64,000 bases of DNA from Actinomadura luteofluorescens (GTDB lineage: Bacteria; Actinomycetota; Actinomycetes; Streptosporangiales; Streptosporangiaceae). The stretch covers positions 9,548,001-9,612,000 of the forward strand of contig NZ_JACCBA010000001.1 of the NCBI RefSeq assembly GCF_013409365.1. Direction: 5' to 3'. Made by a program: the position numbers and the translations under genes. Positions 23,954-44,166 of this stretch are shown here, piece after piece; positions within the stretch are counted from its first letter, which is position 1, and every line of letters begins with the position of its first letter. A model generated the notes under the pieces. It saw only the letters and a program-made list of their open reading frames with translations, was not told where the DNA came from and made no database searches.

Positions 23954-24141
23954 GCGCGAACGCGTGACCTGGCCGGTGGAGCGAAGCCGGAGGCGAGCGG
24001 AGCCGGCCAGATCGCGAAGCGATGCCGCGTTCGCCCAGTGCCGGTCACGTAGCGAGCCGCAAGGCGAGCGAAGTGGGCCGGGACTGAATCAACACAGCCG
24101 CAAGGCGAGCGAAGTGGGCCGGGGCTTTGAAACACAACCTA
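23954..24141 (-). repeat. Structured intergenic repeat, copy A
   Basis: Shares most of its length with 44031-44166. Nested inverted repeats: outer GCGAACGCG (23956-23964) with CGCGTTCGC (24026-24034), inner CTGGCCGG (23969-23976) with CCGGCCAG (24003-24010). Copy A has an extra small hairpin (ATCGC-GAA-GCGAT) and a tandem duplication of a 28-nt unit (about 24055-24082 and 24096-24123). The conserved sequence runs exactly into the stop codon of the NagD-like gene. It may be a transcript-end or mRNA-stability element, or a MITE-like repeat. Confidence 0.75.
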
Positions 24142-24918
24142 GACCAGGTCGACGAGGTCGGCGATGGACGCCACGACGCGGTGCGGGCGGAACGGGAAGC
24201 GGGCGATCTCGTCCTTGCGGGTGACGCCGGTCAGCACCAGGATCGTCTCCAGCCCGGCCTCGACGCCGGCGACGATGTCGGTGTCCATGCGGTCGCCGAT
24301 CATCGCGGTGCTCTCGCTGTGCCCGCCGACCACGTTCAGCGCCGTGCGCATCATCAGCGGGTTCGGCTTGCCGACGAAGTAGGGGTCCACCCCCGTCGCC
24401 CGGGTGATCATCGCGGCGACGGCGCCGCACGCCGGCAGCGAGCCCTCCGGGGACGGGCCGATCGGGTCGGGGTTGGTCGCCACGAACCGGGCGCCGCCCT
24501 CGATCAGCCGGATCGCGCGGGTGATCTGGGAGAAGCTGTAGGTGCGGGTCTCGCCGAGCACCACGTAGTCGGGGTCGATGTCGGTGAGGACGAAGTCGGC
24601 CTCGTGCAGCGCCGTCGTCAGGCCCGCCTCCCCGATCACGTACGCCGACCCCTCGGGGCGCTGGTCGGCCAGGAAACGGGCGGTGGCCAGCGCGGAGGTC
24701 CAGATCGACTCGGCCGGGACGGCCAGCCCCGCCGCCGCCAGGCGGGCCGACAGGTCCCGCCGGGTGTAGATCGAGTTGTTGGTCAGGATGAGGAACGGCT
24801 TTCCGGACGCCGCCAGGCGGCGGACGAACTCCTCGGCGCCGGGGACGGGCCGGCCCTCGTGCACGAGGACGCCGTCCATGTCCGACAGCCAGTACTCGAT
24901 CGGCTTGCGCTCGGTCAT
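24139..24918 (-). CDS. HAD-IIA family phosphatase (NagD-like)
   Basis: 259 residues with the HAD motifs in order: [10 protein letters not shown] near 13, TNNS near 45, Lys in GKPNPLMM near 180 and GDRMDTDI near 206. The cap type and motif II TNNS place it in subclass IIA with NagD and p-nitrophenyl phosphatases, which dephosphorylate nucleoside monophosphates or phosphoglycolate. GACAAT lies 6 nt before ATG 24918 and may be a leaderless -10 box. Its stop codon coincides with the end of the intergenic repeat. Confidence 0.9.
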
Positions 24919-24999
24919 GCCCCCATTGTCGCAGGCAGGGATCTTCCCTGGGACCGTCCGCCGGGACCGTTCTCCCCCGGGCCCGGCGGCGCGGGGGCG

Positions 25000-25029
25000 T
25001 TGACCCGCGTGTGACGTGGACCATACATT
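25000..25029 (+). promoter_or_regulatory. Sigma-70-type promoter for acyl-CoA synthetase
   Basis: TTGACC (25000-25005) and TACATT (25024-25029) separated by 18 nt, in a locally AT-richer stretch. A start site near 25036 leaves a leader of about 70 nt to GTG 25106 and argues against the in-frame ATG at 25016, which would lie inside the promoter. Confidence 0.5.
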
Positions 25030-25105
25030 CTCGGACACGGCGCACCGAATCATGTTCGGCGGACGGGTCGCCCGGCGGTGCGCCCCACCCCGCGGGAGGC
25101 GCGAC

Positions 25106-26902
25106 GTGCAGGATCGGGACGTGCAGGACACCGGGCGGCCGGCGGGCACCGGAATGGCCGGCAACGGGATGGCGGGCCCCAGACTGGCGAGCATCGCCGA
25201 GGTCAGGGCCGCGATGACGGCGCCGGGGCAGCCGTTCGAGATGGACGAGGCCCGGATCCGCGGCGTCCGGACCCGGGTGTGGAAGAACGCCCCGCCCACG
25301 CTGCGCGACGTCCTGGAGATCTCCCGCCTCCACGGCGACAAGGACTTCCTGGTCTACGGGGACGACCGGCTCACCTTCGCCGAGCACCGCGCGCGGGCGG
25401 CCGCGTTCGCGCGGCGGCTCGTCGACCGGTACGGGATCGCCAAGGGCGACCGGGTCGCGATCGCCATGCGCAACTACCCCGAGTGGTCGGTGGCCTTCTT
25501 CGGCGCCGCGGTCGCCGGGGCCGTCGTGGTCCCGCTGAACGCCTGGTGGAGCGCCGCGGAACTGGAGTACGGGCTGGCCGACAGCGGCGCCAAGGTCCTG
25601 GTCGCCGACGCCGAGCGCGCCGAGCGGCTCGCCGGGGTGCTGCCGGGCCTGGGCGTGGCGTGCCTGGTCGCGAGGGCGGACGGCGCCGTGCCCGCGGGAG
25701 CGGAGGCGTTCGAGGACGCCGCCGGCGCCGCCGGAGACCCGGCCGACGCGACCCTGCCCGACATGACTCTGCCCGACGTGCCGCTCGGTCCCGAGGACGA
25801 TGCCACGATCTTCTACACCTCCGGCACCACCGGACGGCCCAAGGGCGCCCTCGGAACGCACCGCAACATCGCCGGCAACCCCATCAGCCTCGCCTACGGG
25901 ATCATGTCGGCGGGGGTGCGCGCCGGCCGCACGGTCGAGGAGCTCGCGACGCCGCAGCCGCGCGTGACGCTGCTGAGCGTCCCGTTCTTCCACGCCACCG
26001 GCTGCCACTCGGTGCTGGTGTCCAGCGCCCTGCAGGGCGGCACCGTGGTGCTGATGTACAAGTGGGACGTCCGCCGGGCGCTGGAGCTGATCGAGCGGGA
26101 GAGGGTCACCGGGTTCGGCGGCGTGCCGACGATGGCGTGGCAGGTGCTGACCTCCCCCGAGTTCGGCGAGTTCGACACCTCCAGCCTCACCGGCGTCAGC
26201 TACGGCGGCGCGCCCGCCGCGCCCGCCCTCGTCGACAAGATCAGGGAGCGGCTGCCCGAGCGGATGCCCGGCAACGGCTACGGCCTCACCGAGACCTCCT
26301 CGGTCACCACCTACAACGGCGGCGTGAACTACCTGGAGCGGCCCGAGAGCGTCGGCCCGCCCGTCGCGGTCTGCGACGTCCGGGTCGTGGGGCCCGCCGG
26401 GGAGGAGCTGCCGGCCGGCGAGGTCGGCGAGCTGCTCATCAAGGGGCCCAACGTCATCAAGGGCTACTGGAACAAGCCCGAGGCGACCGCCGCGGCGTTC
26501 GTGGACGGCTGGTTCCACAGCGGCGACCTGGCCCGCCTGGACGCCGACGGGTTCGTCTACATCGTCGACCGGGCCAAGGACATGCTGATCCGCGGCGGCG
26601 AGAACATCTACTGCGCCGAGGTCGAGGCCGCCCTCTACGAGCATCCCGCCGTCGCCGACTGCGCCGTGATCGGCGTCCCGCACCAGGTGCTCGGCGAGGA
26701 GGTCGGCGCGGTGATCGTGCCGCGCCCCGGCGCCGCGGTGTCCGAGCGCGAGCTCCGGGAGTTCCTGGGCGGGCGGATCGCGGCGTTCAAGGTGCCCGTG
26801 CACGTGTGGTTCCGGGAGGAGGGCCTGCCCCGCAACCCCGGCGGCAAGATCCTCAAGACGCGGCTGCGGGAGGAGCTGCTCGCCCGCCCGCCGGTATCGT
26901 GA
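25106..26902 (+). CDS. Acyl-CoA synthetase / class I adenylate-forming enzyme
   Basis: 598 residues. P-loop [11 protein letters not shown] near 238, A5 motif YGLTETSS near 392, A7/A8 segment [18 protein letters not shown] followed by [10 protein letters not shown], and the A10 catalytic Lys in NPGGKILK near 575. It activates a carboxylic acid with ATP and transfers it to CoA; it resembles fatty acid or aromatic acid-CoA ligases. GTG 25106 with GGGAGG upstream is preferred; ATG 25154 has no good ribosome site. It is followed almost directly by RidA, which has its own promoter box. Confidence 0.88.
26895..26900 (+). promoter_or_regulatory. Leaderless -10 box (TATCGT)
   Basis: TATCGT, 6 nt before GTG 26907, overlapping the end of the acyl-CoA synthetase gene. 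Confidence 0.4.
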
Positions 26903-26906
26903 TCTT

Positions 26907-27329
26907 GTGATGAGCGACGAGCCGGGCCCCGCCCACCGCCAGATCGACGCGCCGGGCCTTCCGCCCGGCCCCGGGTACAGCCATGCCGTCTCCGTCGACG
27001 TGCCGGGCCGGCTGGTGGTGATCAGCGGGCAGATCCCGCTGGACTCGGACGGGAACCTGGTCGGCCCCGGCGACCTGGAGGCCCAGACCCGGCAGGTGTT
27101 CGCCAACCTGGAGACCGCGCTCACCGCCGCGGGCGCCCGCTGGGAGCACGTCGTGCGGCTCGGCTACTTCCTGCGGGACGCCGGCGGCGCCCCGGTCGTG
27201 CGCGCCGTGCGCGCCGAGTTCGTCCCCGCGGGCGTCGCGCCCGCCGCGTCGCTGGTCGAGGTGTCGCGCCTGGTCCGCGACGACCTGCTGGTGGAGATCG
27301 AGGCCCTCGCCGTCGTCCCCGCGGGCTGA
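26907..27329 (+). CDS. RidA family protein (enamine/imine deaminase-like)
   Basis: 140 residues of the YjgF/YER057c/UK114 fold, trimeric in characterised members. RidA hydrolyses reactive 2-aminoacrylate and related imines; family branches do other hydrolytic jobs. Features include GYSHAVSVDV near the start, VISGQIPLDSDGN and the C-terminal VEIEALAVVP strand. The conserved Arg that binds the carboxylate in canonical RidA is not obvious (VSRLVRDDLLVEIE), so activity may differ. The gene ends at a perfect palindrome that separates it from convergent terD. Confidence 0.85.
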   Translation: MMSDEPGPAHRQIDAPGLPPGPGYSHAVSVDVPGRLVVISGQIPLDSDGNLVGPGDLEAQTRQVFANLETALTAAGARWEHVVRLGYFLRDAGGAPVVRAVRAEFVPAGVAPAASLVEVSRLVRDDLLVEIEALAVVPAG

Positions 27330-27351
27330 CGGGCGCCCGGGCCGGACGCGC

Positions 27352-27385
27352 GACGGGGCGCCCCCACCGGTGGGGGCGCCCCGTC
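27352..27385. terminator. Perfect 34-bp palindrome, bidirectional terminator
   Basis: Two perfectly complementary 17-nt arms (27352-27368 and 27369-27385), starting GACGGGGCGC and centred on CACCGGTG. It lies between convergent ridA and terD, 22 bp from one stop and 15 bp from the other. It would fold to a very stable hairpin from either strand, fitting a shared terminator without a U-tract. Confidence 0.8.
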
Positions 27386-27400
27386 CACGTGCGGAGAGGG

Positions 27401-27976
27401 TCAGACGTTCACCCCGAAGTCGGAGGCGATGCCCGACAGGCCCGAGGCGTAGCCCTGGCCCACCGCGCGGAACTTCCACTCGGCGCCGTTGCGGTAGAGC
27501 TCGCCGAACACCATCGCGGTCTCGGTCGAGGCGTCCTCCGACAGGTCGTAGCGCGCGATCTCGCTGTTGTCGGCCTGGTTCACCACGCGGATGAAGGCGT
27601 TGCGGACCTGCCCGAAGCTCTGCTGGCGCTTGTCGGCGTCGTAGATCGACACCGGGAACACGATCTTGGCGATCTCGGCGGGGACGGTGTTCAGGTTCAC
27701 CTTGATCGCCTCGTCGTCGCCCTCGCCCTCACCGGTGAGGTTGTCGCCGGTGTGCTCGACCGAACCGTCGGGGCTCTTGAGGTTGTTGAAGAACACGAAG
27801 TGCTGGTCCGACAGGACCTTGTTCTCCGCCGAGCACAGCAGGGCGCTGGCGTCCAGGTCGAAGTCGGTTCCGGTCGTGGTCCGCACGTCCCACCCCAGAC
27901 CAACCACGACGGCGGTCAGTCCGGGGGCCTCCTTGGTCAGCGAGACGTTGCCGCCCTTGCTCAGACTGACTCCCAC
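27401..27976 (-). CDS. TerD-family stress protein
   Basis: 191 residues, complete TerD domain: start [19 protein letters not shown], the calcium-binding acidic patches DLDASALLC and [10 protein letters not shown], and C-terminal [20 protein letters not shown]. TerD proteins bind calcium and take part in tellurite, phage and general stress responses; single copies are common in actinomycetes and affect development. GTG 27976 is chosen by GGAGGT 8 nt upstream. It ends facing ridA across the palindrome. Confidence 0.93.
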
Positions 27977-28118
27977 TGTGTCTACCTCCGTATCGGCTGC
28001 GGGTGACACCACCCGCGTGCGGTATGTCTAACGAGAACGGTAGCCACCTTGCGCTGGTTCCCCCGCCTCCTTGGCGAATTCGCGGCGTGGCGTGCCCTTT
28101 CTTCCCGCGCGCGGGCCC

Positions 28119-29927
28119 TCAGGCCAGGAACGCGGCGGGCGCGGTGACGGGGGCGGGAAGGTCGAACGCGGCGGCCAGCTCCGCCGCGCGGGGGGCCAGC
28201 TCGTCGCACGTGCGGCGCCGCGCGTCGCCCAGCTCGTCCAGGATCCCCGGCGGGACGACCCCCTCGTCGAGCAGGACGGCGGCGCGGCGCTCCAGCCGGT
28301 CCAGCGCGTGCAGGCGCAGGACGGGCCCGAGCGCCTTCGGCCCGGTGCCGGAGGCCGCGGCGAGGATCTCCAGGATGATCCGGTCGGCGCAGGCGGTGGC
28401 GGTCCGCCGGGCCAGCGCCAGGTTGCCGTTCCAGGCGGTGAAGGCGTCCTGCCCGTCGCGCAGGGCGGCCTCGACCCGTCCGGCGAGCCGGTCGCGCGTG
28501 CGGCGCTCGGCGTCGCGCGCCAGGAACAGCCACACGCGCGGGGAGTCCAGGTCGCCGTCGTCAGGCGGACCGAGCTCCGGCTCGGGCGGGACGTAGCGGT
28601 CGCGGTCGGCCATCGCGCGGGCGGTGTCGTAGAGGATGAGCTCGTTGTCGCCGCCGGCGTTCTGGTAGGCGTGCGTCAGGCCCCGGTAGGCGTTGAGGCG
28701 CTCGACGGCGGCGAAGCCGGGGGCGCCGCTGTGCACCCGGCACGCCGACACCGTCTCCTGCGCCTGGGCGGTGGCGGCGGCCTTCAGCAGCGCCAGGTCC
28801 CGGTCGACCGCCGACCACGGCGCCCACGCGGTCGCCGGCCCGCCCGTATCGCCGGCGCCCTCGCCGTCGCCCGCCGTCTCGCCCGGGGGGCGGGGGGTGG
28901 TGACGTGCGCGGCGACGGCGGTGAGGGCGTAGGCCGACGCCAGCGCGCCCAGCACCGCCTCCTGCTGGTTGCGGTAGTCGGTCAGCGGGCGGCGCGGCGC
29001 CAGCCGGCCGAGGGTGGTGCGGCCCGCCGAGTGAGCGAGCAGCATCCCGGCGGACGCCCGGGTGATCGCGGCGGAGGCCGACACGACCGCCCGCCACACC
29101 GGCGGGGCGATGCCCATCGAGCGGGTGAGCCGCGCCGCCGCGGGCCCGTGCGGGTCGTGGAAGGCCCCGTCGGCGCCGATGGCGGCGCCGTCGCGCAGCC
29201 ACGCCTCGTAGGGGACGCGGACGTCCTCCAGCAGGACGGCGGCGTAGTCGATCTGCAGCCCGGTGGTCTCGGGGGCCGCGACGATCCGCACGCCGGGCGG
29301 GACGGCGCCGCCGGGGCCGCGCAGCGGCACCGCGAACACGAACACGCCGCGCTCCTGGCCGCCGTGGACGAGGGTGGCGTAGACGGCGGCGGTCTTGGGC
29401 AGGTCCGGGTGGCCGGTGTTGGTGGGGAACTTGGCGGCCTGGGTGTCGGGGGTGCTGAGCACGAACCCGCCCGTGGCGGGGTCGTGGCGGGCGACGGTGC
29501 GGGGCGACAGGTGGCTGTTGCTGCGTCCCACCTCGGTCATCAGCAGCGTGCCGAACGAGTCCATCGACTCCAGGGAATCGCGCAGCGGCCGCGTCTCCTC
29601 CTGCCCGGCGCCGAACCGCACGATGGGGCCGAGCGCGAGCGTGTAGTGCAGCAGCATCATGTGGAACAGGGGCGGGTCGGCGATCGCGGCGCGCTCCAGC
29701 AGCGCGCACAGCGCCGGCGGGTCGGCCAGCAGCTCGCCCGCGGGCGGCGCGGCCAGCCCGGCGCGGCGCAGCCGCTCGTAGGTGAGGGCGTGCCGGTCGG
29801 GCGCGGTGAGCCCGCCGGGGACGGTGAAGAACTCCTCGGGGACGGCCTCCTCCAGCCGCGCGCGCGTCTTGGCGTCGGGTAGGGGGCCGTGCACGAACTG
29901 CCGCAGACCGTCGGCGTCGGTGGTCAC
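28119..29927 (-). CDS. Acyl-CoA oxidase/dehydrogenase-like flavoprotein
   Basis: 602 residues with the layout of peroxisomal-type acyl-CoA oxidases: an N-terminal helical domain, an FAD/acyl-binding middle with TEVGRSNSHLSPRTVARHDP and AAKFPTNTGH, and a C-terminal helical domain containing QNAGGDNELILYDTAR (compare the EGDN motif of oxidases). It probably introduces a 2,3 double bond into an acyl-CoA using FAD. GTG 29927 overlaps the stop of the upstream acyltransferase (GTGA). With the acyltransferase and the divergent KAS III it forms a small acyl-processing set. Confidence 0.82.
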   Translation of the reverse strand: MTTDADGLRQFVHGPLPDAKTRARLEEAVPEEFFTVPGGLTAPDRHALTYERLRRAGLAAPPAGELLADPPALCALLERAAIADPPLFHMMLLHYTLALGPIVRFGAGQEETRPLRDSLESMDSFGTLLMTEVGRSNSHLSPRTVARHDPATGGFVLSTPDTQAAKFPTNTGHPDLPKTAAVYATLVHGGQERGVFVFAVPLRGPGGAVPPGVRIVAAPETTGLQIDYAAVLLEDVRVPYEAWLRDGAAIGADGAFHDPHGPAAARLTRSMGIAPPVWRAVVSASAAITRASAGMLLAHSAGRTTLGRLAPRRPLTDYRNQQEAVLGALASAYALTAVAAHVTTPRPPGETAGDGEGAGDTGGPATAWAPWSAVDRDLALLKAAATAQAQETVSACRVHSGAPGFAAVERLNAYRGLTHAYQNAGGDNELILYDTARAMADRDRYVPPEPELGPPDDGDLDSPRVWLFLARDAERRTRDRLAGRVEAALRDGQDAFTAWNGNLALARRTATACADRIILEILAAASGTGPKALGPVLRLHALDRLERRAAVLLDEGVVPPGILDELGDARRRTCDELAPRAAELAAAFDLPAPVTAPAAFLA

Positions 29928-30955
29928 GAGGGGTCCTTTCGTTCGCCGGAGGGGGTGACGCCGGGGGCGGCCTTGCCGGTGAGCCCGTGGCGGGGGCGGT
30001 CGCGCAGCGGCGCCATCGTCCGCACGCCCGGCAGGGTCAGCCGGGCGCACTGGCACAGCGCGTTGCCCGCGCCGGCCTCGGTGAACACCGTCGCGCCCGC
30101 CGCGTGCACGGCGCGCAGGGCCTCCGGCAGCCGGACGGGTCTGACGATGCAGTCGGCCATGGCGCGGTGCAGGTCGTCGTCGTCGCGGTAGGCGCGGCCG
30201 CGGACGGGCGAGTGGACGGTCAGCTCCAGGGGCCGCTGCGGGAAGCCGCGGATCATGGCGTACCACTCCTCGTCGGCGCCGGCCATCGCGGGATGGTGGG
30301 ACAGGTAGGGCACCGCGAGCCGCACCGCGTTCACTCCCTCCCCGCGCGCGGCGTCCAGGACGGCGTCCAGGGGCCCGTCGGGACCGGACACGACCGTGAC
30401 CTGCGGGGCGTTCAGGCACGCGACGACCACCTCGGGGGCGCCGGCGGCCTCGATGCAGGCGAGGGTGCGGTCCTCCCCGGCCTCCAGCAGCCCCATGCCG
30501 CCGCCCCCGCCGTGCCGGGCCAGGACGCCGACGGCGGCCACGCCCATGCGGGCGCCGTCGGCGATGGAGAACGCGCCCGCGCACACCAGCGCGGCGATCT
30601 CCCCGAAGCTCTGCCCGACGGCGAAGCGGGGGTGGACGCCGTGCGCGCGCAGGGCGCGGTCGACGGCGACGGACGCGGCGTAGCCGGCTAGCTGGGCGAC
30701 GCCGGGGGTGCGGGCGGCCTCCCGGTAGCCGCCCGGGTCGTCCATGAGGATCGAGCGCAGGCGCGGCCATCCGTTGGGGGGCAGTCCCTCCTGCACGGCG
30801 TCCAGGACGTCGGCGACGGCGCGGGCGGCGCCGGGCCCGGTGCGGGCGAGGGCAGGCAGGTCGGGGACCCCGGCGGAGCCGGTGCCGGGGAACAGGAAGG
30901 CGCAGTTGTCGTCGGGTTGGAGCTCTTCGGCCGGGCGGAATCGGGGTGCGGGCAC
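29924..30955 (-). CDS. Acyltransferase, FabD/AT-domain like
   Basis: 343-residue stand-alone acyltransferase. It begins AFLFPGTGS, has the nucleophile Ser116 in GQSFGE and the catalytic His220 in LSHHPAM. Known relatives load malonyl or other acyl groups from CoA onto an acyl carrier protein. The usual Arg after the GxSxG region (malonate carboxylate binding) is not clear here, so a non-malonyl substrate is possible. GTG start with AAGGAG at 7 nt. No carrier protein is encoded nearby. It is divergent from KAS III. Confidence 0.82.
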   Translation of the reverse strand: MPAPRFRPAEELQPDDNCAFLFPGTGSAGVPDLPALARTGPGAARAVADVLDAVQEGLPPNGWPRLRSILMDDPGGYREAARTPGVAQLAGYAASVAVDRALRAHGVHPRFAVGQSFGEIAALVCAGAFSIADGARMGVAAVGVLARHGGGGGMGLLEAGEDRTLACIEAAGAPEVVVACLNAPQVTVVSGPDGPLDAVLDAARGEGVNAVRLAVPYLSHHPAMAGADEEWYAMIRGFPQRPLELTVHSPVRGRAYRDDDDLHRAMADCIVRPVRLPEALRAVHAAGATVFTEAGAGNALCQCARLTLPGVRTMAPLRDRPRHGLTGKAAPGVTPSGERKDPS

Positions 30956-31106
30956 GCGGGGTCTCCTTACCTGGAGGGAAGGCTGCCTTTTCCTTTACGA
31001 CAACGGCCGCTTAGCTTTCAGTTATGGACCAAAACCCTGAAATGGGATTATTCACTTATGGGATGGGACTGACAACCGCCAGTCCGGTGATGGGGAGAGG
31101 ACCCGC
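30956..31106. promoter_or_regulatory. AT-rich divergent promoter region
   Basis: 151 bp between the acyltransferase and KAS III starts. About 100 bp of it (near 30975-31075) is far less GC-rich than anything around, with runs such as CCTTTTCCTTTACG and GGGATTATTCACTTATGGG. I could not assign -35/-10 pairs with confidence. The composition suggests a regulated divergent promoter. Confidence 0.45.
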
Positions 31107-32165
31107 ATGACCGTGCCCGACACGCACCGGCCTGCCCGGGCGGACGACAGCGGAGCGGCGCGGGACGGCGGGCGGGGGTGGGCCATCCGCGGAACCGGCG
31201 CCCACCTGCCCCGCGACGTCGCGCACAGCGCCGACCTGTCCCGCTCGCTGGGCCTGGAACCGGACTGGATCGAGGGCCGCACCGGGATCAGGAAGCGGCA
31301 CGTCGTCGCGCCGGGCGAGGCCGCCTCCGACCTGGCCGCGGCCGCCGCCGGGCGGGCGCTGGAGGCCGCCGGGCTGGACGCCGCCGACCTCGGCCTGATC
31401 GTGCTCGGCACCTCCACGCCCGACGTGATCGCCCCGTCCACCGCCTGCCGCGTGCAGACGATGCTGGGCGCCCACCGCGCCGCCGCGTTCGACATCTCCG
31501 CCGCCTGCACCGGGTTCGTGTTCGGGCTGCAGACCGCGGTCGGCTGGCTGGCCACCCAGCGCGGCGCGCCGCCCTACACGCTGGTCATCGGCGTCGAGGT
31601 GTACTCGCGGTTCCTCAATCCCGCCGACCGCGCCACCGCCGCCCTGTTCGGCGACGGCGCCGCCGCCGTGGTCGTCGGGCCCGCCCCGCCCGGGCACGGC
31701 ATCGGCCCGATCACCCTCGGGTCGGACGGCTCGGGCGCGGACGACGTGCTGATCCCCGCGGGCGGCAGCCGCCTGCCCGCCAGCGCCGAGACCCTCGCGG
31801 GGCTCGGCCACACCATCCACATGGACGGCCGCGCCGTCCGCGACTTCATCACCGCGATCTTCCCGCGGCTGGTCGCCGAGGCGACCGAGGCCGCCGGGAT
31901 CAAGCCCGCCGACCTGGCGCTGGTCGTCCCGCACCAGCCCAACCCGAAGCTGGTCGCCGCGCTGGCCGGGGACGCCGGGCTGGACCCGGGGCAGCTGGCG
32001 ATCGTCGGGGACGAGGTCGGCAACATCGGCGCCGCCAGCATCCCCTACGCGCTCGACCGCGCCGTGCGGACGCGGCGGATCGGCCCCGGCGACCTGGTGC
32101 TGCTCGCCGGGTTCGGCGCGGGCCTGACCTGGGGGCACACCCTCATCACCTGGCCCCCGCCCTGA
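31107..32165 (+). CDS. Beta-ketoacyl-ACP synthase III-like protein
   Basis: 352-residue thiolase-fold enzyme with the KAS III triad: Cys134 in SAACTGF, His276 in VPHQPNPK and Asn306 in GNIGAAS. FabH and relatives condense an acyl-CoA starter with malonyl-ACP; others make pathway starter units or esters. This copy differs from housekeeping FabH in the Asn region (GNIGAAS, not GNTSAAS). A 30-residue disordered N-terminus precedes WAIRGTGAHLP. It is divergent from a stand-alone AT and an acyl-CoA oxidase, so a dedicated acyl pathway is likely. Confidence 0.87.
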   Translation: MTVPDTHRPARADDSGAARDGGRGWAIRGTGAHLPRDVAHSADLSRSLGLEPDWIEGRTGIRKRHVVAPGEAASDLAAAAAGRALEAAGLDAADLGLIVLGTSTPDVIAPSTACRVQTMLGAHRAAAFDISAACTGFVFGLQTAVGWLATQRGAPPYTLVIGVEVYSRFLNPADRATAALFGDGAAAVVVGPAPPGHGIGPITLGSDGSGADDVLIPAGGSRLPASAETLAGLGHTIHMDGRAVRDFITAIFPRLVAEATEAAGIKPADLALVVPHQPNPKLVAALAGDAGLDPGQLAIVGDEVGNIGAASIPYALDRAVRTRRIGPGDLVLLAGFGAGLTWGHTLITWPPP

Positions 32166-32190
32166 CCGTCCGCCGCGGGGGGGCGTCCGG

Positions 32191-32643
32191 TCAGCGCGTC
32201 AGCCGGCGCAGCACCTGCCGGGTCTCGGCGCGGCGGTCCCAGGCGACGGCGGCGAACACGACCGCGAACCCCAGGGGCAGCAGCGCCCACGCCGGCTCCA
32301 GCACCAGCAGCTGGGTGAGGGCGGCCCCGCCCATCAGCCCGATCAGCCCGGCCGCGGCGAGCCCCGCCAGCCGCGGGACGACCAGCCCGATCGCGCCCGC
32401 GGCCTCGACGGCGCCGGTCACGTAGCGCAGCCACTGGCCCCAGCCGATCTCCTCGAAGGTCCTGACGGCGTCGGCCTGGCCGGCGAACTTCGGCAGCGCC
32501 GAGGCGACGAGCAGGAACGCGGCGAGCAGGATCTGCGCGCCCCACAGCACCTTGCGCAGCGTGCGTCGGTCCCCGGCGGAGGCGCGGGCGTTGGTCTTGC
32601 GGGGGGTGGTGACGGGGGTGGTGGTGTGGGTCTGGGCGCTCAT
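32191..32643 (-). CDS. DoxX-like membrane protein
   Basis: 150 residues, four membrane helices: LLAAFLLVASALPKFAG, GAVEAAGAIGLVVP, GLIGLMGGAALTQLLV and LLPLGFAVVFAAVAW. The SALPKFAGQADAV segment and the ETAG-like VTGAVEAAG match the DoxX family, linked to redox homeostasis or quinone handling in the membrane. GGAAGGACC precedes ATG 32643. The first 28 residues are polar. Confidence 0.85.
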   Translation of the reverse strand: MSAQTHTTTPVTTPRKTNARASAGDRRTLRKVLWGAQILLAAFLLVASALPKFAGQADAVRTFEEIGWGQWLRYVTGAVEAAGAIGLVVPRLAGLAAAGLIGLMGGAALTQLLVLEPAWALLPLGFAVVFAAVAWDRRAETRQVLRRLTR

Positions 32644-32785
32644 GGCGGTGGTCCTTCCGTGCGCTGTCTCATCGGCCTTCACAGACGCGTCGCACGGACC
32701 CCCGCCGGATCGACATCCGGCCCAGGATTTCTCCAGATAATTTTCTGCGGCGGTATCAGTGCAGGTGAGAGCCGGTGGACGTGGC

Positions 32786-32890: not shown

Positions 32891-32921
32891 CGGCTTCCCC
32901 GGCGGGACGGGGGGCGGGGGT

Positions 32922-33524: not shown

Positions 33525-33530
33525 GCGCGC

Positions 33531-33536
33531 ACGCTA
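33531..33536 (-). promoter_or_regulatory. Leaderless -10 box (TAGCGT)
   Basis: TAGCGT on the minus strand, 6 nt before ATG 33524. Confidence 0.45.
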
Positions 33537-36615: not shown

Positions 36616-37220
36616 GGGCGCTCGTCCCTGGAGCGCAGGGTGACGAACCACCGGTCCGCGTCCTCCCAGGATTCGGTCACGGTCGCGGCGCACGCGGCGG
36701 CCAGCGCGGCGACGGCGTCGGCGGACACGTGCGCCCAGGGGAACCATTCGCCGACCGACCGGTCCGAGCGCAGCCGCAGCGGCTCGACCCGGGACGCCGT
36801 GCCGGGCGGGCCGACCTCCAGGAGCGCCAGGACGCGGCGCAGCAGCGCGGCGGGGTCGCCGCCGATGCCGATGTTGCCGTCGGCGAGCAGCGCGGTGCGC
36901 CACCGCCCGGCGCCGGGCACGCGGCCGAACACGTCGCGGCACAGGGCGGGGCCGCCCGCCGCGACAGTCAGCGCGACGGCGGAGGGGGCCAGGTCGATGC
37001 CCAGCACCGGCAGGCCGCGGCGGGCCAGCGCCACCGTCAGCCGTCCCGGCCCGGATCCGACGTCCAGGGTGGCGCCCGCGCAGCGGCGCAGCAGCCCGCC
37101 GTCGCCGGGCCGCACGGCGAGCCAGTCGTGCACCGGCAGCGGCCGGCGGCGCCCGTCGGCGTGCTCGATCTCCACGGGGGCGCGGCCCCGCAGCGCCTCC
37201 TCGTACAGTTCGCCGATCAT
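36612..37220 (-). CDS. Class I SAM-dependent methyltransferase
   Basis: 202 residues. SAM motif LDVGSGPGRLTVALARRG near 53-70, acidic residue in VLGIDLAPS, and a later LLADGNIGIGGDP that matches the post-II region. The acceptor is unknown. The C-terminal half keeps a WFPWAHVSADAV segment. Start ATG 37220 and stop 36612 both form ATGA overlaps with neighbours, so it is a fixed member of the seven-gene operon. Confidence 0.85.
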   Translation of the reverse strand: MIGELYEEALRGRAPVEIEHADGRRRPLPVHDWLAVRPGDGGLLRRCAGATLDVGSGPGRLTVALARRGLPVLGIDLAPSAVALTVAAGGPALCRDVFGRVPGAGRWRTALLADGNIGIGGDPAALLRRVLALLEVGPPGTASRVEPLRLRSDRSVGEWFPWAHVSADAVAALAAACAATVTESWEDADRWFVTLRSRDERP

Positions 37221-37891
37221 GCCGGGACGGTCCGGTGGCCGAGGGCCGCGACGGCGGCGGCGAACCGGCCGCCCGGCGCGGCGGCGGCGACGGCCGCGGC
37301 GTCGGCGGGGGTGTCGACGTCGGTGAGCTCGGGCAGCGTCGCGGTCCGCAGGCCGGCGGCGCGCAGCCGCGCGAGCTGGACCGCGCCGGTGTCGGGGCGC
37401 GACATCGGGACACCGCGCAGCAGCGCCGCGGCGGGCCGGCGCAGCCCGAGCAGCCAGAACCCGCCGTCGCGGGCGGGGCCGAACACCGCGTCGGCGCGGC
37501 CGAGCGCGCGGCGGGCGCGGTCGAGCAGCGCGGGGGTGACCTGGGGGGTGTCCATGCCGATCAGCACCAGCGGCCGGCCGGCGTAGGCGTCGGCGAAGGC
37601 GTGGGCGAGGCGCTCGTCCAGGCCGCCGCCGCGCTGGGCGATGACGGTGAAGCCATCCGGCAGCCACGGCCCAGGGTCGCCGGCGAGCGCGAGGACCCGG
37701 CGGCCGGCCGGTGCGGCGGCGACGGCGGCGAGGGTGTCGCGCAGGGACGCCTCAGCGAGCGCGGCGGCCTCGGCGGGAGTGTAGGCGGGGGTCAGGCGCG
37801 TCTTGACCCGGCCGGGGACAGGCTGCTTGGCGATGACGAGGAGGTCGGCGCCGCCGGTTCCGGGTGCGCCGGTCGCGGGTGCGCCGGTCAT
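37217..37891 (-). CDS. DUF2064/TIGR04282-type glycosyltransferase-like protein
   Basis: 224 residues with a nucleotide-diphospho-sugar transferase-like fold: VIAKQPVPGRVKTRLTP at the start (PGRVKTRL is the family hallmark), LIGMDTPQVTP near 112 and FGPARDGGFWLLGL near 140. Relatives were named for the arsenosugar pathway but are widespread; they resemble nucleotidyltransferases that activate sugars. The first 15 residues are an Ala/Gly/Pro repeat. ATGA overlaps on both sides. Confidence 0.85.
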   Translation of the reverse strand: MTGAPATGAPGTGGADLLVIAKQPVPGRVKTRLTPAYTPAEAAALAEASLRDTLAAVAAAPAGRRVLALAGDPGPWLPDGFTVIAQRGGGLDERLAHAFADAYAGRPLVLIGMDTPQVTPALLDRARRALGRADAVFGPARDGGFWLLGLRRPAAALLRGVPMSRPDTGAVQLARLRAAGLRTATLPELTDVDTPADAAAVAAAAPGGRFAAAVAALGHRTVPA

Positions 37892-38595
37892 CGGGCGACC
37901 TCCGCCAGGACGCGGCGCATGTCGCGGACGGCGCGGACCGTCCCGCCGAGCGTCCCGGTCACCTTCGAGGCGCCGGTGCGGGGCCGGTAGGGGACGTCGA
38001 TCTCGCCGATGCGCCATCCGGCGCGGGCGGCGTGCAGCACCATCTCCAGGGGGTAGCCGAAGCGGCGGTCCCTCAGGCCGAGGGCGAGCAGGGCGTCGCG
38101 GCGGGCGGCGCGCATCGGCCCGAGGTCGCGCAGCCGGGTCCCGGCGCGCCGGTTCAGCGACCGGGCGAGCACGGCGTTGCCCAGGCGGGCGTGCGGCGGC
38201 CACGCGCCCGGCCCGGTCGGCCTCCGCCGCCCCAGCACCAGGCCGGGGGGCGGCGGGCTGGACGGCAGCGCGCGGCCACCGGGCTCCAGGCCGCCGGATT
38301 CCAGGTCGTCGAGTGCGGCGACCAGGCGGGGCAGGTCGGCGGGGTCCAGCGAGGCGTCGGCGTCCATCACGCACACGACCTCGGTCCGGGCGGCCCGCAG
38401 CCCGGCGTGGCAGGCGGCGCCGAAGCCGCGCTGCGGCGCCGCGACGACGCGGGCGCCGTGGTCGGCGGCGACGCGCGCGGAGTCGTCGGTGGAGGCGTTG
38501 TCGACCACCAGGGCCTGGAAACCCTCGGGCATCCGGTCCAGTACCCAGGGCAACGCCTCGGCCTCGTTGAGACAGGGGAGAACCACATCGATCAC
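37888..38595 (-). CDS. Family 2 glycosyltransferase
   Basis: 235-residue GT2 enzyme. [16 protein letters not shown] at the N-terminus, [11 protein letters not shown], the DxD-type DADASLDP near 78-85, and C-terminal [28 protein letters not shown] typical of dolichyl-phosphate mannose synthase-like transferases. No membrane helices, so it works at the inner membrane face. It could charge a polyprenyl phosphate with a sugar for the GT-C-like protein at the end of the operon (inference). GTG start; 37 bp after the epimerase gene. Confidence 0.88.
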
Positions 38596-38632
38596 GGCTC
38601 AGACGCTACTTTCGGTGATGGGGCGGCGACCC

Positions 38633-39658
38633 TTACGAACTGGTGACGTGCGGGCGGGCGAACTCGGCCATGCCCTCGGCGAACGGGACCGCCGGCCGGA
38701 AGCCGAGCTCGCGGCGGGCGCGGTCGGGCCGGGCGACGATGTGGCGGACGTCCCCGAGCCGGTAGTCCCCGGTGACACGGGGCCGGGGGCCGCCGAACGC
38801 GTCGGCGAGGGCGCCGGCCATGGCACCGACGCTGCGGGGGTCGCCGCTGGCGATGTTGTAGGCGCGCAGGCCGCCGGGCTCGGGCGGCGCGGCCGCGGCC
38901 CGCTCCAGCGCCAGCACGCCGGCGCGGGCGACGTCGCGGACGTGGACGAAGTCGCGGCGCTGCGCGCCGTCCTCGAACACCAGCGGCGCCAGGCCGTCCA
39001 TCAGCCGCGACCGGAAGAGCGCCGCGACGCCGGCGTAGGGGGTGTCGCGCGGCATCCGCGGCCCGTAGACGTTGTGGTAGCGCAGCGCGGCGACGGTACC
39101 GCCGGTCGCGCGGGCCCAGGACGCGGCCAGGTGCTCCTGGGCGAGCTTGGTGTCGGCGTAGACGTTGCGGGGGCCGGGCGGGGTCTCCTCGCCGACGGCG
39201 CCGGGGGTGAGCGGTTCCCCGCACGCCGGGCACGGCGGCTCGAACCGGCCGGCGCGCAGCGCGTCCTCGGGGCGGGGCCCGGGGCGGACGAGGCCGTGCA
39301 CGGTGCAGGTGTAGGCGCCCTCCCCGTAGACGACCATCGAGGAGGCCAGCACGAGGGCGCCGACGCCGGCGCGCGCCATCTCGGCCAGCAGCACGGCGGT
39401 GCCCTGCACGTTGACGGAGGTGTAGTCGGGCAGGTCGGACACGTCCACGCCGAGGCCGACCTTGGCGGCCTGGTGGCAGACGGCGTCGACGTCCTCCAGC
39501 CGCCGCGCGACCGCGGCGGCGTCGCGGACGTCGGCGGGCGGGTCGCCGAGCCCGTCGGGGCGCGTGTCGAGCCCGCGGACGCGGTGGCCGGCGGCGGTCA
39601 GCGCCTCGGCGATGTGCGAGCCGATGAATCCGGCCGACCCGGTGAGCAGTACGTTCAT
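38633..39658 (-). CDS. NAD-dependent sugar epimerase/dehydratase
   Basis: 341 residues of the extended SDR family. Rossmann motif [17 protein letters not shown], catalytic YxxxK in [12 protein letters not shown] near 160, and an inserted [13 protein letters not shown] segment with a CxxC pair, a feature of dTDP-L-rhamnose 4-epimerase-like members. It likely makes the nucleotide sugar used by the operon's glycosyltransferases. ATG 39658 is favoured by TACGTT 7 nt upstream; the in-frame GTG at 39664 is too near that box. First gene of the seven-gene operon. Confidence 0.88.
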
Positions 39659-39665
39659 GCGCACG

Positions 39666-39671
39666 AACGTA
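39666..39671 (-). promoter_or_regulatory. Leaderless -10 box (TACGTT) for the seven-gene operon
   Basis: TACGTT on the minus strand, 7 nt before ATG 39658. Confidence 0.4.
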
Positions 39672-39741
39672 GGGCGCGGGGCGCGTCCGGGACCGCCGGG
39701 ACGGGCCGGTCAAGGCACCTTGTTCGAACCTTGTAAGAACT

Positions 39742-40800
39742 TCACCCGGCGGCGGGGACGAGGGGGGCGAGCAGCCCGGCGGCCTTGTCGACGTCGGCCT
39801 CGGTGGTGCTGAGGTGGAACGCGCAGCGCAGCCGCCCGGCGCGCACGGCGGCGATGACGCCGTTGCGTCGCAGCAGGTCGGCGGTGCCGTCCGGGACGGG
39901 CAGCGACACGATCGCCGAGTCGCCCGGCGGGAGGCCGAGGCCGGCGGCGAACCGGCGCGCGAGCGCGACGTCGTGGTCGTGGATCGCGGGGATCCCGACC
40001 CGTTCCAGCAGTTCCAGTGCGGGGGCCTGCCCGGCCCAGCACTGCCACGCCGGGGACAGGTCCAGGCGGCGGGCGTCGCCGGCCAGGCGCAGCGGCAGCC
40101 CGTAGACGGAGTCCCAGATGTCGGCGCCGGCGTACCATCCGGCGCCGATGGCGGGCAGGGCGTCCAGGGCCTCGCGGGTGCCGGTCAGGAAGCAGGTTCC
40201 GCGCGGGCCGAGCAGCCACTTGTAGCCGCCGGCGACCAGCCAGTCGACGCGGCCGGCGGGAAGCGGGAGCCATCCGGCGGCCTGGGTGGCGTCCAGCAGG
40301 ACGCGGGCGCCGTGCGCGCGGGCGGCCTCGATGATCTCGTCCATGGGGGCGATGCGGCCGTCGGCGGACTGCACCGCCGACACCGCGACCAGGCCGGTGC
40401 CCGCGCCGACGTGCTCGGCGATGCGCTCCAGCGGGACCGGCCGGACGCTCAGGTCCGGGCGGGCGGCGAACGGGAACAGCAGCGAGGTGAAGTCGCCGTC
40501 GGCGACGACGACCTCGGCGCCGGCGGGCAGGGACGCCGCGACGAGCCCGGTGAAGTAGGAGACCTGCGGGCCGCACGCGACGCGATCGGCCGGGACGCCG
40601 AGCAGCCGCGCGAACGCCTCCCTGGACCGGGTGACCGCCTCGTCCAGCGCGCCGGGCTCCAGGATCCCGGCGGCGCGGTCGCGCTCGGCGGCGAGCATGG
40701 TCTCGTGCGCGGCGCGCGGCGGAAGCCCGTAGGTGGCGGTGTTGAGGAAGGCTACGCCGGCGCCGAACTCGCGCTGCGCCTCCGGCAGGGAAAGGGTCAT
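39742..40800 (-). CDS. Class V PLP-dependent aminotransferase
   Basis: 352 residues. The PLP-binding Lys lies in [12 protein letters not shown] near 201, with the preceding Asp/Gln in [10 protein letters not shown]. Start [13 protein letters not shown] is typical of the class V group with cysteine desulfurases, isopenicillin N epimerase-like proteins and kynureninase-like enzymes. A desulfurase active-site Cys loop is not evident, so it is more likely an epimerase, lyase or transaminase. It is divergent from a LysR regulator 84 bp away that probably controls it. Confidence 0.87.
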
Positions 40801-40872
40801 GTCCCGATCGTGGGACACCGGTGCGCCATAGCGCAAAGTACGGTTTTCTTGGCGTCCCATCAATGGCGTTGA

Positions 40873-40878
40873 TACCTT
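40873..40878 (+). promoter_or_regulatory. Leaderless -10 box (TACCTT)
   Basis: TACCTT, 6 nt before ATG 40885. Confidence 0.45.
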
Positions 40879-40884
40879 GCGGCG

Positions 40885-41790
40885 ATGCTGGACCTGCATC
40901 GGGGCCGGATCCTGCGCGAGGTGGCGCGGCTCGGGTCGATGACCGCCGCCGCGCGGTCCCTGGCCTACACCCAGCCCGCGGTGTCGCACCACATCGCCCG
41001 CCTGGAGGCCGAGGTCGGCACCCCGCTGGTGGTCCGGCACGGCCGGGGCGTGCGGCTGACCGAGGCGGGCCGGGTCCTGGTCGAGCACGTCGAGGACGTG
41101 CTGGCCCGCATGAGCGACGCCGAGGAGCGGATCGCGGCGATCGCCGGGCTGCGCGCCGGGCGGGTGCGGGCCGCGGTGTTCCCCACGGCGGCGGGCGGGC
41201 TGATGCCCGGCGCCCTGGCCCGGCTGCGGGCCCGCGCGCCGGGGGTGTCGGTGACGCTGGTGGACGCCGAGCCGCCCGAGGCGCTGGCGCTGCTGCGCGC
41301 CGGGGAGGCCGACGTCGCGGTGGTGTTCCGGCACGTGTCCATGCCGCCCGAGACCGACGCGCGGTTCCGGGAGGTGGTGCTGTGCGAGGACCCGCTGCGG
41401 CTGCTGGTCCCGGCCGCGCATCCGCTGGCGTCGGCGCGGCGGCCGCGGCTGGAGGACCTGGCCGGGGAGACGTGGGCGTCGGGCTGCGCGCGGTGCCGCG
41501 ACCATCTCCGGTGGGCGTGCGCCAGGGCGGGGTTCGTCCCCGACATCGCGTTCGCCACCGAGGATCATGTCGCGATCCAGCGGCTGGTCGCGCAAGGCCT
41601 GGCCGTGACGACGCTGCCGGGGCTGGCGCTCGGCCTGCACTCCGAGCCGGGCGTGGCGCTGCCCGACGTGCCCGGTGTCGGCAGCCGCCGCGTCAGCGCG
41701 GTCGTCGCGGCAGGCCCGCGTCCTCCCGCGGTGGCGGCGCTGCTGGACGAACTGGCCGCCGCCGGCACGGCCGGGGCGGGCGACGGCTAG
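40885..41790 (+). CDS. LysR-family transcriptional regulator
   Basis: 301 residues: N-terminal winged helix ([31 protein letters not shown]) and a type 2 periplasmic-binding-like effector domain from about 90. A CARCRDH motif at about 204-210 adds two Cys in the effector domain, perhaps redox or metal sensitive. It probably regulates the divergent aminotransferase. The stop codon lies in a CTAG shared with the convergent IclR gene. Confidence 0.9.
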
Positions 41791-42563
41791 GACAGGTGGC
41801 GGTGCAGGTCGGTGAGGCGGCTCGCGGCCGCCATCACCGCCGCGGCCAGGGCGGGCATCGCGTCGTCGCCGAACCGCACCGAGGGGCCCTGCAGCGCGAC
41901 GGCCGCGAACACGCGCCCGCCGCCGTCGCGGACCGGCGCGGCCACGGCGCGGACCCCGGCCAGCCGCTCCTCGTCGTTGACGGCGTAGCCGCGCTCGCGG
42001 ACGGCCCGCAGGTCGGCCTCCAGACCGGCGCGGGTGGTGAGGGTCGCGGGGGTGTGGCGGGCGTACGGCTCGTCCATCGCGACGGGGTCGCCGTCGAAGG
42101 CCAGCAGCGCCTTGCCCATCGCGCACGCGTGGACCGGGTTGCGGTCGCCGGGCGGCTGGTCGTAGCGCAGCGGGTGGACCGACGGCAGGTGCAGCAGCAC
42201 CGCGACCTCGTCACCGGCGCGCACGCCGAGGCTGACCGACTCGCCCGTCCCGTCGCGCAGCGCGGTCAGCTCGGGCTGCAGCAGGGTCGCGCCCATCCGC
42301 TCCAGCGCGAGGCGGCCGAGGATGGCGGTGGTGGGGCCGAGGAAGTACCGCTCGGTCGCGGGGTCCTGCGCGAGCATCCCGGTGGCGTGCAGGGCGCGGA
42401 CGATGCGGTGCGCGGTGCTGACCGACAGGCCGAGGCGGTGCGCGATCTGGGTGGGGGTCTGCCGGGCGGCGCCCTCGAAGGAGCGGAGCACCGCCACGGA
42501 GCGGTCCACCGTCTGCGTGCCCGGCTTGGGCTGCTGCGTCCCTTCCGCTCGGTCGTCCGTCAC
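41787..42563 (-). CDS. IclR-family transcriptional regulator
   Basis: 258 residues. Winged helix at about 15-75 ([29 protein letters not shown]), then the IclR effector domain ending in [22 protein letters not shown]. IclR proteins bind small organic acids and often repress adjacent catabolic genes. GTG 42563 is preferred over ATG 42572 because GGGAGG then has normal spacing. It is divergent from a P450 gene 62 bp away, a likely target. Overlaps the convergent LysR gene by four bases. Confidence 0.88.
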
Positions 42564-42612
42564 GGATCCCATCCTCCCACCGCTCCCGGCGCGGGGACGG
42601 CGGGGGGCGTGC

Positions 42613-42618
42613 GATAGT
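42613..42618 (+). promoter_or_regulatory. Leaderless -10-like box (GATAGT)
   Basis: GATAGT, 7 nt before GTG 42626. It favours this start over GTG 42617, which overlaps the box. Confidence 0.35.
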
Positions 42619-42625
42619 GGGGCGC

Positions 42626-44002
42626 GTGGCACCCGACACCCCGGTACGCGCGCCCCGTTCCCGCAAGGCCCGCACGGCGGGCGGGAGGGCGCGGGGCCCC
42701 TCGCCGTCGCTGACGGTCCGGCACGGGATCGGGTTCACGCGCAACCCGTGCGCGAGCCTGCTGCGCCTGCACGCCGAGGCGGGCCCGGTCGCGGTCGTCG
42801 GGACGCGCCGGATGCCGTTCGTGCACCTGTTCGGCCCCGACGCCAACGCGTTCGTGTTCGCCAACTCGGGCCTGTTCCGGTGGCGGGAGGCGTTCGACCT
42901 GCTGGTGCCGGTGAACGGGGAGACCGCGCTGATCGTCAGCGACGGCGCCGACCACCGGCGGCGGCGCCGGCTCGTCCAGCCGGCCTTCCACCACCGGCGC
43001 GTCGCCGGGTACGTGGCGCGGATCGCGGCCAACACCGACGTGGCGCTGGAGTCCTGGCGCCCGGGCCGGACGCTGGACGCCTACGCCGAGCTGCGCGCGG
43101 TGATCCGCCGCAGCACGGTGGAGGTGCTGTTCGGCGACGGGCTCGCCGCCGACAGCGAGGTGATCGGGCGGCGCCTCCAGGTCGCGCTCGCGGCGGTCGA
43201 CCGCAACTTCGTGCTGCAGATGGTGCTGCGGTCGGTGCCCAACCCCTACATGCGGCGCGTCGCGGCGTCGCGGGCGCTGGTCGCCGCGCGGGTGGACGAG
43301 GAGATCGAGCGGCGGCTGCGCGAGGGCGGCGAGTACGACGACGTGCTGGGCATGCTGCTGGCCTCGCGCGACGAGGACGGCGCGGGCCTGACCCGCCAGG
43401 AGCTCCAGGACCAGGTCATCAGCCTCATCTCGGCCGGCTACGACACCACCAGCGCCGCGATGGCGTGGGCGGTGCACGCGCTGCTGGCCCATCCGGAGGC
43501 CGAGGAGCGGGCGCGGCGGGAGGTGGCCGAGGTGGTCGGCGACCGGCCGGTCGAGGCCGCAGACCTGCCCGCGCTGGAGTACCTGGACGGGGTGGTGAAC
43601 GAGACGCTGCGGCTGTTCCCGCCCGCCGTGCTCAGCGCCCGCGTCCCGGTCGAGGACTTCTCCTACGGCGGGCACCGGGTCCCGGCGGGGGCGATGGTGT
43701 TCTACTCCCCGTTCGTCACCCACCGGATGCCGGAGGCGTGGCCGCAGGCGGGACGGTTCCGGCCCGAGCGGTGGGACCGTTCCTCGGAGCTGTACCGTCC
43801 CACCACCCCGGCGACGTACCTGCCGTTCGGCGGCGGCCCGCACCGCTGCATCGGCTCGACGCTGGCGACGGTGGAGATCAAGACGATGCTGGCGTGCCTG
43901 CTGCGCCGCACGCGGCTGTCGCTGGTCTCCACCGCCGCCACGCCGACGAGCGTGACCGCGATGCGCCCCCGCGGCGGCGTACCGGTGCGAGTGCTCGGCT
44001 AG
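42626..44002 (+). CDS. Cytochrome P450
   Basis: 458 residues with all P450 landmarks: I-helix SAGYDTTS near 268-275, ExxR in NETLRL near 324, PERW, and the haem loop FGGGPHRCIG with the axial Cys408. The first 30 residues are basic and not a membrane anchor, so it is soluble. Substrate unknown; the PAVLSARVPVEDF and CYP110/CYP1xx-like length suggest a fatty or terpenoid substrate, but this is weak. Probably controlled by the divergent IclR gene. A redox partner is not encoded nearby. Confidence 0.92.
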   Translation: MAPDTPVRAPRSRKARTAGGRARGPSPSLTVRHGIGFTRNPCASLLRLHAEAGPVAVVGTRRMPFVHLFGPDANAFVFANSGLFRWREAFDLLVPVNGETALIVSDGADHRRRRRLVQPAFHHRRVAGYVARIAANTDVALESWRPGRTLDAYAELRAVIRRSTVEVLFGDGLAADSEVIGRRLQVALAAVDRNFVLQMVLRSVPNPYMRRVAASRALVAARVDEEIERRLREGGEYDDVLGMLLASRDEDGAGLTRQELQDQVISLISAGYDTTSAAMAWAVHALLAHPEAEERARREVAEVVGDRPVEAADLPALEYLDGVVNETLRLFPPAVLSARVPVEDFSYGGHRVPAGAMVFYSPFVTHRMPEAWPQAGRFRPERWDRSSELYRPTTPATYLPFGGGPHRCIGSTLATVEIKTMLACLLRRTRLSLVSTAATPTSVTAMRPRGGVPVRVLG

Positions 44003-44030
44003 CTAGCGCCTGGGATGTGACCTCGTCCAC

Positions 44031-44166
44031 GCGCGCGAACGCGTGACCTGCCCGGTGCCGCGAAGCCGGAGGCGAGCGGAACCGGGCAGATCGCGTTCGC
44101 CCAGGCACGGTCACGTAGCGAGCCGCCAGGCGAGCGGAGTGGGCCGGGACTGCGAAACGCAACCTA
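44031..44166 (-). repeat. Structured intergenic repeat, copy B
   Basis: Copy of the element at 23954-24141, without the extra small hairpin and tandem unit. Outer arms GCGAACGCG (44035-44043) and CGCGTTCGC (44092-44100) are identical to copy A. Inner arms CTGCCCGGT (44048-44056) and ACCGGGCAG (44081-44089) differ from copy A by a G-C to C-G change on both sides, so pairing is kept. It ends exactly with the stop codon of the VOC gene, as copy A does with the NagD-like gene. Confidence 0.75.

Follow-up and report, generated by a model that had tools for sequence, protein, structure and literature searches.

Small intergenic miniature inverted-repeat transposable elements (MITEs) such as ERIC, NEMIS and RUP are transcribed and folded on transcription, mainly through their terminal repeats. 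RUP and NEMIS are named as MITEs in the available part of PMC3733652, and MITEs derived from IS5, BrickBuilt and others, are known from Porphyromonas gingivalis (available part of PMC4596501). Here we describe a dispersed repeat with two copies in a 64,000-nucleotide stretch of DNA (the window), which corresponds to positions 9548001-9612000 of a 9.62-Mb single-contig Actinomadura genome (the home genome). Genes were called with a crude codon-score caller trained on the window. Comparison of sequences indicated that the repeat is almost certainly an IS5-type MITE with a CTAG target. The fuller reading, a non-autonomous IS5-type MITE of Actinomadura carrying a structured core that may act as RNA, is one we consider likely. 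The features of the two copies, as defined by the sequence and by comparison with a close relative, G079, are the following:

23920..23923, no strand: left CTAG of copy 1, target duplication (sequence and G079 comparison)
23924..24138, plus strand: element copy 1, 215 bp (empty site in G079)
23924..23939, plus strand: left end of copy 1, an IS5-like terminal repeat, differing from the family consensus at 4 of 20 bases, CTAG included
23956..24085, plus strand: structured core of copy 1 with helices P1, P2, P3 and P4 (model match G000:C1:9571956-9572085; RNA fold)
24055..24136, plus strand: right end of copy 1, two head-to-tail 41-bp units (repeat family D18)
24139..24142, no strand: right CTAG of copy 1, in which CTA provides minus-strand gene 24139-24930 with its TAG stop
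44003..44006, no strand: left CTAG of copy 2, directly after the CTAG at 43999-44002
44007..44163, plus strand: element copy 2, 157 bp (empty site in G079)
44035..44151, plus strand: structured core of copy 2, hairpin P3 deleted (model match G000:C1:9592035-9592151)
44164..44167, no strand: right CTAG of copy 2, in which CTA provides minus-strand gene 44164-44526 with its TAG stop

Re-reading of the sequence showed that both copies, their outer arms and their inner arms were present as an earlier note on this DNA had written them, and that both copies run into the TAG (CTA on the plus strand) of a minus-strand gene, at 24139-24141 and 44164-44166. The copies delimited in that note are real; the true bounds of the element are longer, 23924-24138 and 44007-44163, between CTAGs. 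Copy 1 is flanked by two minus-strand genes and copy 2 by convergent genes, the TAG of the CTAG at 43999-44002 being the stop of the plus-strand gene 42710-44002. Allowing up to 3 mismatches, a 19-base core was found at two places in the window (0.11 expected in shuffles). Rfam 15 gave no match in the window at gathering scores.

Both copies belong to a large family. A covariance-model search of the home genome returned 102 matches at E<=0.001 (150 candidates scored), so that the further copies on which the earlier proposal of a family depended are present; a previous DNA search had found 45 places (40 of 187 candidates scored). The left end of the family is CTAG-GGCCTGTCTCGAAGTGGCC and its right end TTTGAAACACAGC-CTAG or a near variant. 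The left-end pattern (up to 2 mismatches) was found at 57 places in the genome and the right-end pattern (up to 3 mismatches) at 44, and the reversed controls gave none. Allowing up to 4 mismatches, with C/T and G/A uncounted in one direction, the left end was present in 78 of the 102 home copies. Some counts below were made on a set of 76 home copies, which is enriched for left ends, 39 fetched sites having been found by their left end, and which counts the tandem copies in L019 and L030 separately; the 102-copy set is free of this enrichment.

Comparison with G079 revealed empty sites. The blocks of G079 adjoining the two window copies are 94.7-97.1% identical, and G079 is without either copy. 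At copy 1, the sequence GCCGG-TCAG-ACCAG of G079 corresponds to GCGGG-CTAG-element-CTAG-ACCAG in the window; at copy 2, GCTCGG-CTAG-TCCGGCGCCCGG-CTAG-TTCTGG corresponds to GCTCGG-CTAG-CTAG-element-CTAG-TTCTGG. The twelve bases that separate the two CTAG stops in G079 (L230) are missing from the window, where the CTAGs at 43999-44006 are adjacent. Among 30 loci around relatives of the gene next to copy 1, one of which (L192) stops at a contig edge, the element was found in the window's own only. Within 436 kb of G079, both flanks could be located for eleven of the 76 home copies, including both window copies, and the element was present there at none of the 11. Ten of these sites were informative (L013 was not), and eight had one CTAG fewer in G079 than in the home genome, where CTAG-element-CTAG or a decayed form of it was found. 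IS5-like ends and one CTAG fewer at empty sites identify the repeat as a MITE that duplicates CTAG. At L058 and L088 the CTAG of G079 is the common stop of two convergent genes, so that its duplication gives each gene its own stop. The number of model matches, 102 in the home genome against 12 in G079, 3 in G078, 8 in G082 and 16 in G064, points to a recent burst in the home genome, and both window copies look like recent insertions when compared with the relative.

These data bear on the idea of an immobile host RNA element, a terminator or decay signal fixed at stops by selection. Copies without transposon ends do lie at gene ends in many species, some of them at orthologous loci, as such an element would. 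The empty sites, the CTAG duplication and the recent burst speak against it, and we consider it very improbable overall, although it may apply to end-less copies in other species; for the two window copies it is refuted by their empty sites and CTAG duplication.

A candidate source of mobility was found in the same genome. Two of the 57 left-end places (L085 and L086, near 8304.9 and 8451.8 kb) are near-identical copies of a complete IS5-family element of 1024 bp including both CTAGs. Its ends, CTAGGGCGTGTTTCGAAGTGG and CTTCGAAACACGGCCTAG, are similar to those of the short element, its transposase matches the Pfam families DUF4096 and DDE_Tnp_1, and the stop codon of this transposase is the TAG of the terminal CTAG. 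An IS5-family transposase was sought in eight genomes and matched in six. Ends were checked at 22 of 30 transposase loci; similar ones were found at loci of G082, G033, G028 and G079, and the locus examined in G029 had no such ends. The partial transposase loci L373 and L394 of G033 carry CTAGGGCCTGTTTCGAAGT; in that genome, the short elements L032 and L102 have these 19 bases as their left ends.

We also considered a repetitive extragenic palindromic (REP) element moved by a Y1 transposase (REP-associated tyrosine transposase, RAYT). The repeat is palindromic and intergenic, and its termini supply a TAG stop, as the available part of PMC3733652 describes for GTAG REPs. However, Y1_Tnp (PF01797) had no match in the home genome, G028, G029, G033 or G035, the five genomes with most model matches in the first genus-wide search (10 of the 59 genomes searched have one), and a duplicated CTAG with inverted ends fits a DDE transposase. 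To our knowledge, no target duplication has been described for REPs, and we disfavour this explanation as scarcely credible.

The choice of target accounts for much of the position of the element. In 436 kb of G079, 93 CTAGs were found against 1002 expected from base composition, an approximately ten-fold depletion; 39 were at called stops (10 serving two genes), 47 were intergenic and 7 lay within genes. Abutment on stops, noted earlier for the two window copies, was seen at both ends in 21 of the 102 home copies, at the right end only in 53, at the left end only in 11 and at neither in 17, and none of the 102 lies inside a called gene. CTAG being rare and often a stop codon, this abutment is largely explained by the target. 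The strands of the left and right neighbouring genes were +- for 61 copies, -- for 24, ++ for 12, -+ for 4 and unknown/- for 1. The orientation of the copies was biased: with near-equal tolerances at the two ends (11 positions right, 9 left; 76 rows), right-only abutment was found in 35 copies and left-only in 13 (p=0.002). The corresponding figure for the 102 copies, 53 against 11 (p=1e-7), is inflated by a tolerance of 31 positions at the right end against 9 at the left. As CTAG is its own complement, the bias does not come from target choice; it probably reflects selection among insertions, although a bias of the transposase is conceivable.

The copies differ in internal composition. Hairpin P3, GATCGCGAAGCGATG, which is missing from copy 2, was present in 70 of 76 home copies and in all 20 rows of a cross-species alignment, once with one base changed. 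What the earlier note had read as an extra hairpin of one copy is therefore ancestral, and copy 2 carries a deletion. Its proposal that the element evolves by duplication holds for the 41-bp right-hand unit but not for the hairpin; of 76 home copies, 46 have a single such unit, 28 have two, one has three and one has four. From the length of 157-215 bp and the base-paired covariation we infer that the element has no coding capacity. Rearranged forms were also seen. L076, near 2000 (home genome 2329002-2329047), is a 46-bp miniature in which the left end is fused to the right end between two CTAGs and the core is gone. Head-to-tail arrays occur, with four elements spaced 151 bp at L134 (G028:C12:77034-79164). 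L030 has 62-bp partial units in tandem, and L012 has several 41-bp right-hand units.

The paired change in the inner arms, which had been taken as compensatory and as keeping the stem, behaves as an uncorrelated polymorphism in the home genome. The pair was readable in 96 of the 102 copies, as C-G in 41, G-G in 47, G-C in 7 and C-C in 1, so that 48 of 96 were paired (Fisher p=0.076); an earlier set of home copies gave 33 of 70 (p=0.23). In the 58 home copies that bear ends, pairing was close to the prediction from column composition (0.45 against 0.39 at the inner-arm pair), and midway along P2 three base pairs were formed in no more than 10-12% of them. A matching stem change in two copies is compatible with chance. 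The broader claim, that the folded form matters, is supported by covariation across species and not by the pair on which it had relied.

The core consists of 130 nt, a three-way junction P1/P2/P3 followed by hairpin P4. The model found it in 27 of 36 genomes of the genus, the home genome included, and in none of 23 genomes of other genera. With further genomes of the genus (21 of 24), the total was 48 of 60 at E<=1e-4, a count in which G002 and G071 are positive by one weak match each (E about 1e-5) and for which the model search scored only 58 or 143 candidates per genome in several genomes. One hit of a DNA search in another genus (G049, E 3e-4) did not recur with the model. In a pattern scan of named genomes that ended at 120 stretches, all of the at least 80 records listed were Actinomadura. 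Together with the CTAG duplications against empty sites, the IS5-like ends and the 102 copies, this restriction to the genus among the genomes searched agrees with the earlier suggestion of a MITE-like family particular to the lineage.

Conservation of the fold was assessed in an alignment (A1, 20 rows) that combined 3 sequences of the home genome with 17 from other genomes. A1 excludes L041, L044 and L066, for which no anchor was found, L017, whose end could not be located, and L059; L037 was entered with ends set by hand. The copies from other species, selected for the highest DNA or model scores or for an exact match to a P3/P1 pattern, are not a random sample. With a structure made of P1, P2 with its mini-stem, P3 and P4, 89.7% of cells were paired against 82.6 in shuffled alignments, 21 pairs had double changes against 11.7 in shuffles and 4-11 in slid controls, and the covariation score was 0.208 against 0.091; none of 500 shuffles, which ignore relatedness, was as high on any of five measures. 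RNAalifold on its own recovered the main helices, with 39 pairs against 51 in the manual structure. Both hairpins contain a C-GA...GA-G internal loop, which may represent tandem G-A pairs, and a GCC/GGC mini-stem, and these columns hardly vary in A1. A search of Rfam with three loci of relatives returned only a miRNA model, far below the cut-off and outside the core. Collectively, these comparisons demonstrate that the core is under structural constraint across species, as far as covariation can tell.

Such covariation could be a by-product of template switching in hairpins, one arm being copied onto the other without any selection on the fold. Long perfect hairpins are known substrates for template switching, and within the home genome pairing equals the column-composition prediction. 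However, loop and junction columns are nearly invariant, the fold is strand-biased and the multi-helix core survives in copies whose end sequences are gone, which makes this explanation improbable.

Loss of the ends was frequent elsewhere. Among 182 copies in other species, the left end had at most 4 mismatches in 57, at least 7, like background, in 110, and an intermediate number in 15. Sequence conservation in the end-less copies reaches no further than from about CCTCAGCCGTCA, ahead of P1, to the A/T-rich tail TTGCAATAAACA that follows P4. Their helices P2 and P4 covary, and end-bearing copies elsewhere covary too. In 70 of 89 cases with a minus-strand right neighbour, the stop of that neighbour lies 70-135 nt from where P3 begins, often within the A/T-rich tail. 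A tree of 230 distinct cores, built without the copies of intermediate end score, shows 30 changes of end state, where shuffles average 77. Eight pairs of copies from different genomes match on both flanks, indicating orthologous loci, and changes at these pairs were counted as double compensated / single kept / broken or unpaired:

L104-L118: 4/0/2
L118-L119: 5/0/4
L104-L119: 1/0/3
L106-L109: 4/1/4, or 5/1/2 in another alignment
L039-L044: 0/1/3
L112-L325: 5/2/9, poorly aligned
L165-L008: 5/1/10, an old copy with a young one, probably inserted separately
L227-L020: 0/0/4

The sum for the eight pairs, L165-L008 and L112-L325 included, is 24/5/39. Few single kept changes against many double changes fit compensation, which the many unpaired cells weaken, and support, without proving, selection on the fold at fixed loci. 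L165 (G006) and L008 (home genome) occupy one intergenic place, the former being old and end-less and the latter young and end-bearing, probably through separate insertions at a hot site.

The fold might be kept only because it aids movement of the element, as single-stranded DNA, as a cruciform or in a transposase-bound form, and have no role for the host. This would suit the covariation of end-bearing copies in other species and the fact that copies within one genome are near relatives of each other. Nevertheless, the core outlives the left end in the 110 end-less copies of 182 elsewhere, some of them at orthologous loci with paired changes, and the partial unpairing of P2 in the recent burst of the home genome (10-12% at three pairs) indicates that movement needs no whole P2. 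We regard a fold maintained for movement alone as unlikely, although not far-fetched.

On the left-to-right strand, G-T cells outnumbered A-C cells in the 110 end-less copies elsewhere (121:80), the 57 end-bearing copies elsewhere (60:26) and the 58 home copies (61:17), one pair that is U-G in 19 of the 20 A1 sequences being excluded. In the two cores for which folding was compared, the RNA fold of this strand had an energy of -90.4 kcal/mol (z -7.45) for L109 and -73.3 kcal/mol (z -4.68) for copy 1, and the complement had -78.8 (z -4.93) and -58.8 (z -1.58), respectively. This strand bias favours RNA or single-stranded DNA over a cruciform. Accordingly, the constrained strand probably continues a plus-strand left gene and runs antisense into a minus-strand right gene. 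In agreement with a role at 3' ends, the left gene is on the plus strand in 73 of the 102 home copies. We hypothesize, giving it about an even chance, that the core functions as RNA, on its left-to-right strand, at transcript 3' ends, ending, trimming or protecting them just short of the stop of the neighbouring gene.

Besides the relatedness ignored by the A1 shuffles, several results count against the reading of the repeat as an IS5-type MITE with an RNA-acting core. Two of the ten informative empty sites have no CTAG (TCAG and CTAC). The element is present in G034 and G066, for which the transposase search returned nothing at the threshold applied. Across the eight locus pairs there are more unpaired cells (39) than double compensated changes (24). 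The lead of G-T cells is small when each kind is counted once per class (49:35, 26:17 and 17:7, in the order given above). A minus-strand left gene, whose transcript would not cross the core on the constrained strand, flanks 28 of the 102 home copies (one copy could not be assigned). Finally, no T-run intrinsic terminator was found at copy 1 within 23800-24300; any ending of transcripts there would have to proceed via a stem lacking a T run, processing or 3'-end protection.

According to the mechanism that we propose, an IS5-family transposase would move the element in trans, and insertion at CTAG, rare and often a stop codon, places it at gene ends. Old copies that have lost the transposon ends would then be kept for the action of their RNA at 3' ends. 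In its widest form, a genus-wide RNA element in an IS5-type MITE, new insertions providing ready-made transcript ends and old, end-less ones being domesticated and evolving by paired changes, this proposal is tentative, a possibility rather than a probability. If the fold acts as RNA, a mobile element would spread 3'-end signals throughout a genome by aiming at stop codons. The recent insertions with empty sites in a close relative make a before/after comparison possible on the same gene pairs, and the old copies at orthologous loci make domestication testable. Even as a plain MITE, the element accounts for a conspicuous repeat of Actinomadura genomes. These results also illustrate that a matching stem change in two copies proves little. 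Elsewhere in the window, the segments 59666-60135 and 61769-62241 are about 72% identical and are perhaps adjacent paralogous genes.

No description of this Actinomadura family was found in the literature searched, most subscription journals being outside its reach. In ERIC, NEMIS and RUP the fold comes mainly from the terminal repeats, whereas the fold of the Actinomadura element is internal and separate from its ends. The MITEs of P. gingivalis, as described in the available part of PMC4596501, are likewise short and non-autonomous, with ends resembling those of resident IS5-family elements and an inner tandem unit. Their target duplications vary in length and sequence (PMC4596501, same part), whereas the Actinomadura element duplicates CTAG, often a stop, and has in addition a core that covaries across the genus. 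GTAG REPs and bacterial interspersed mosaic elements (BIMEs) share with it their abundance, their intergenic palindromes and termini that often give open reading frames their TAG stop, but the GTAG REPs are linked to RAYTs and measure 20-40 bp, against 157-215 bp here (available part of PMC3733652). The intergenic repeats of Borrelia plasmids also lie just 3' of stops and show compensatory stem changes; unlike the Actinomadura element, they are simple plasmid stem-loops, and no IS-like ends are described for them in the available part of PMC2674063. What seems new in the Actinomadura element is the combination of CTAG-targeted delivery to stop codons with a genus-wide covarying core that outlives the transposon ends.

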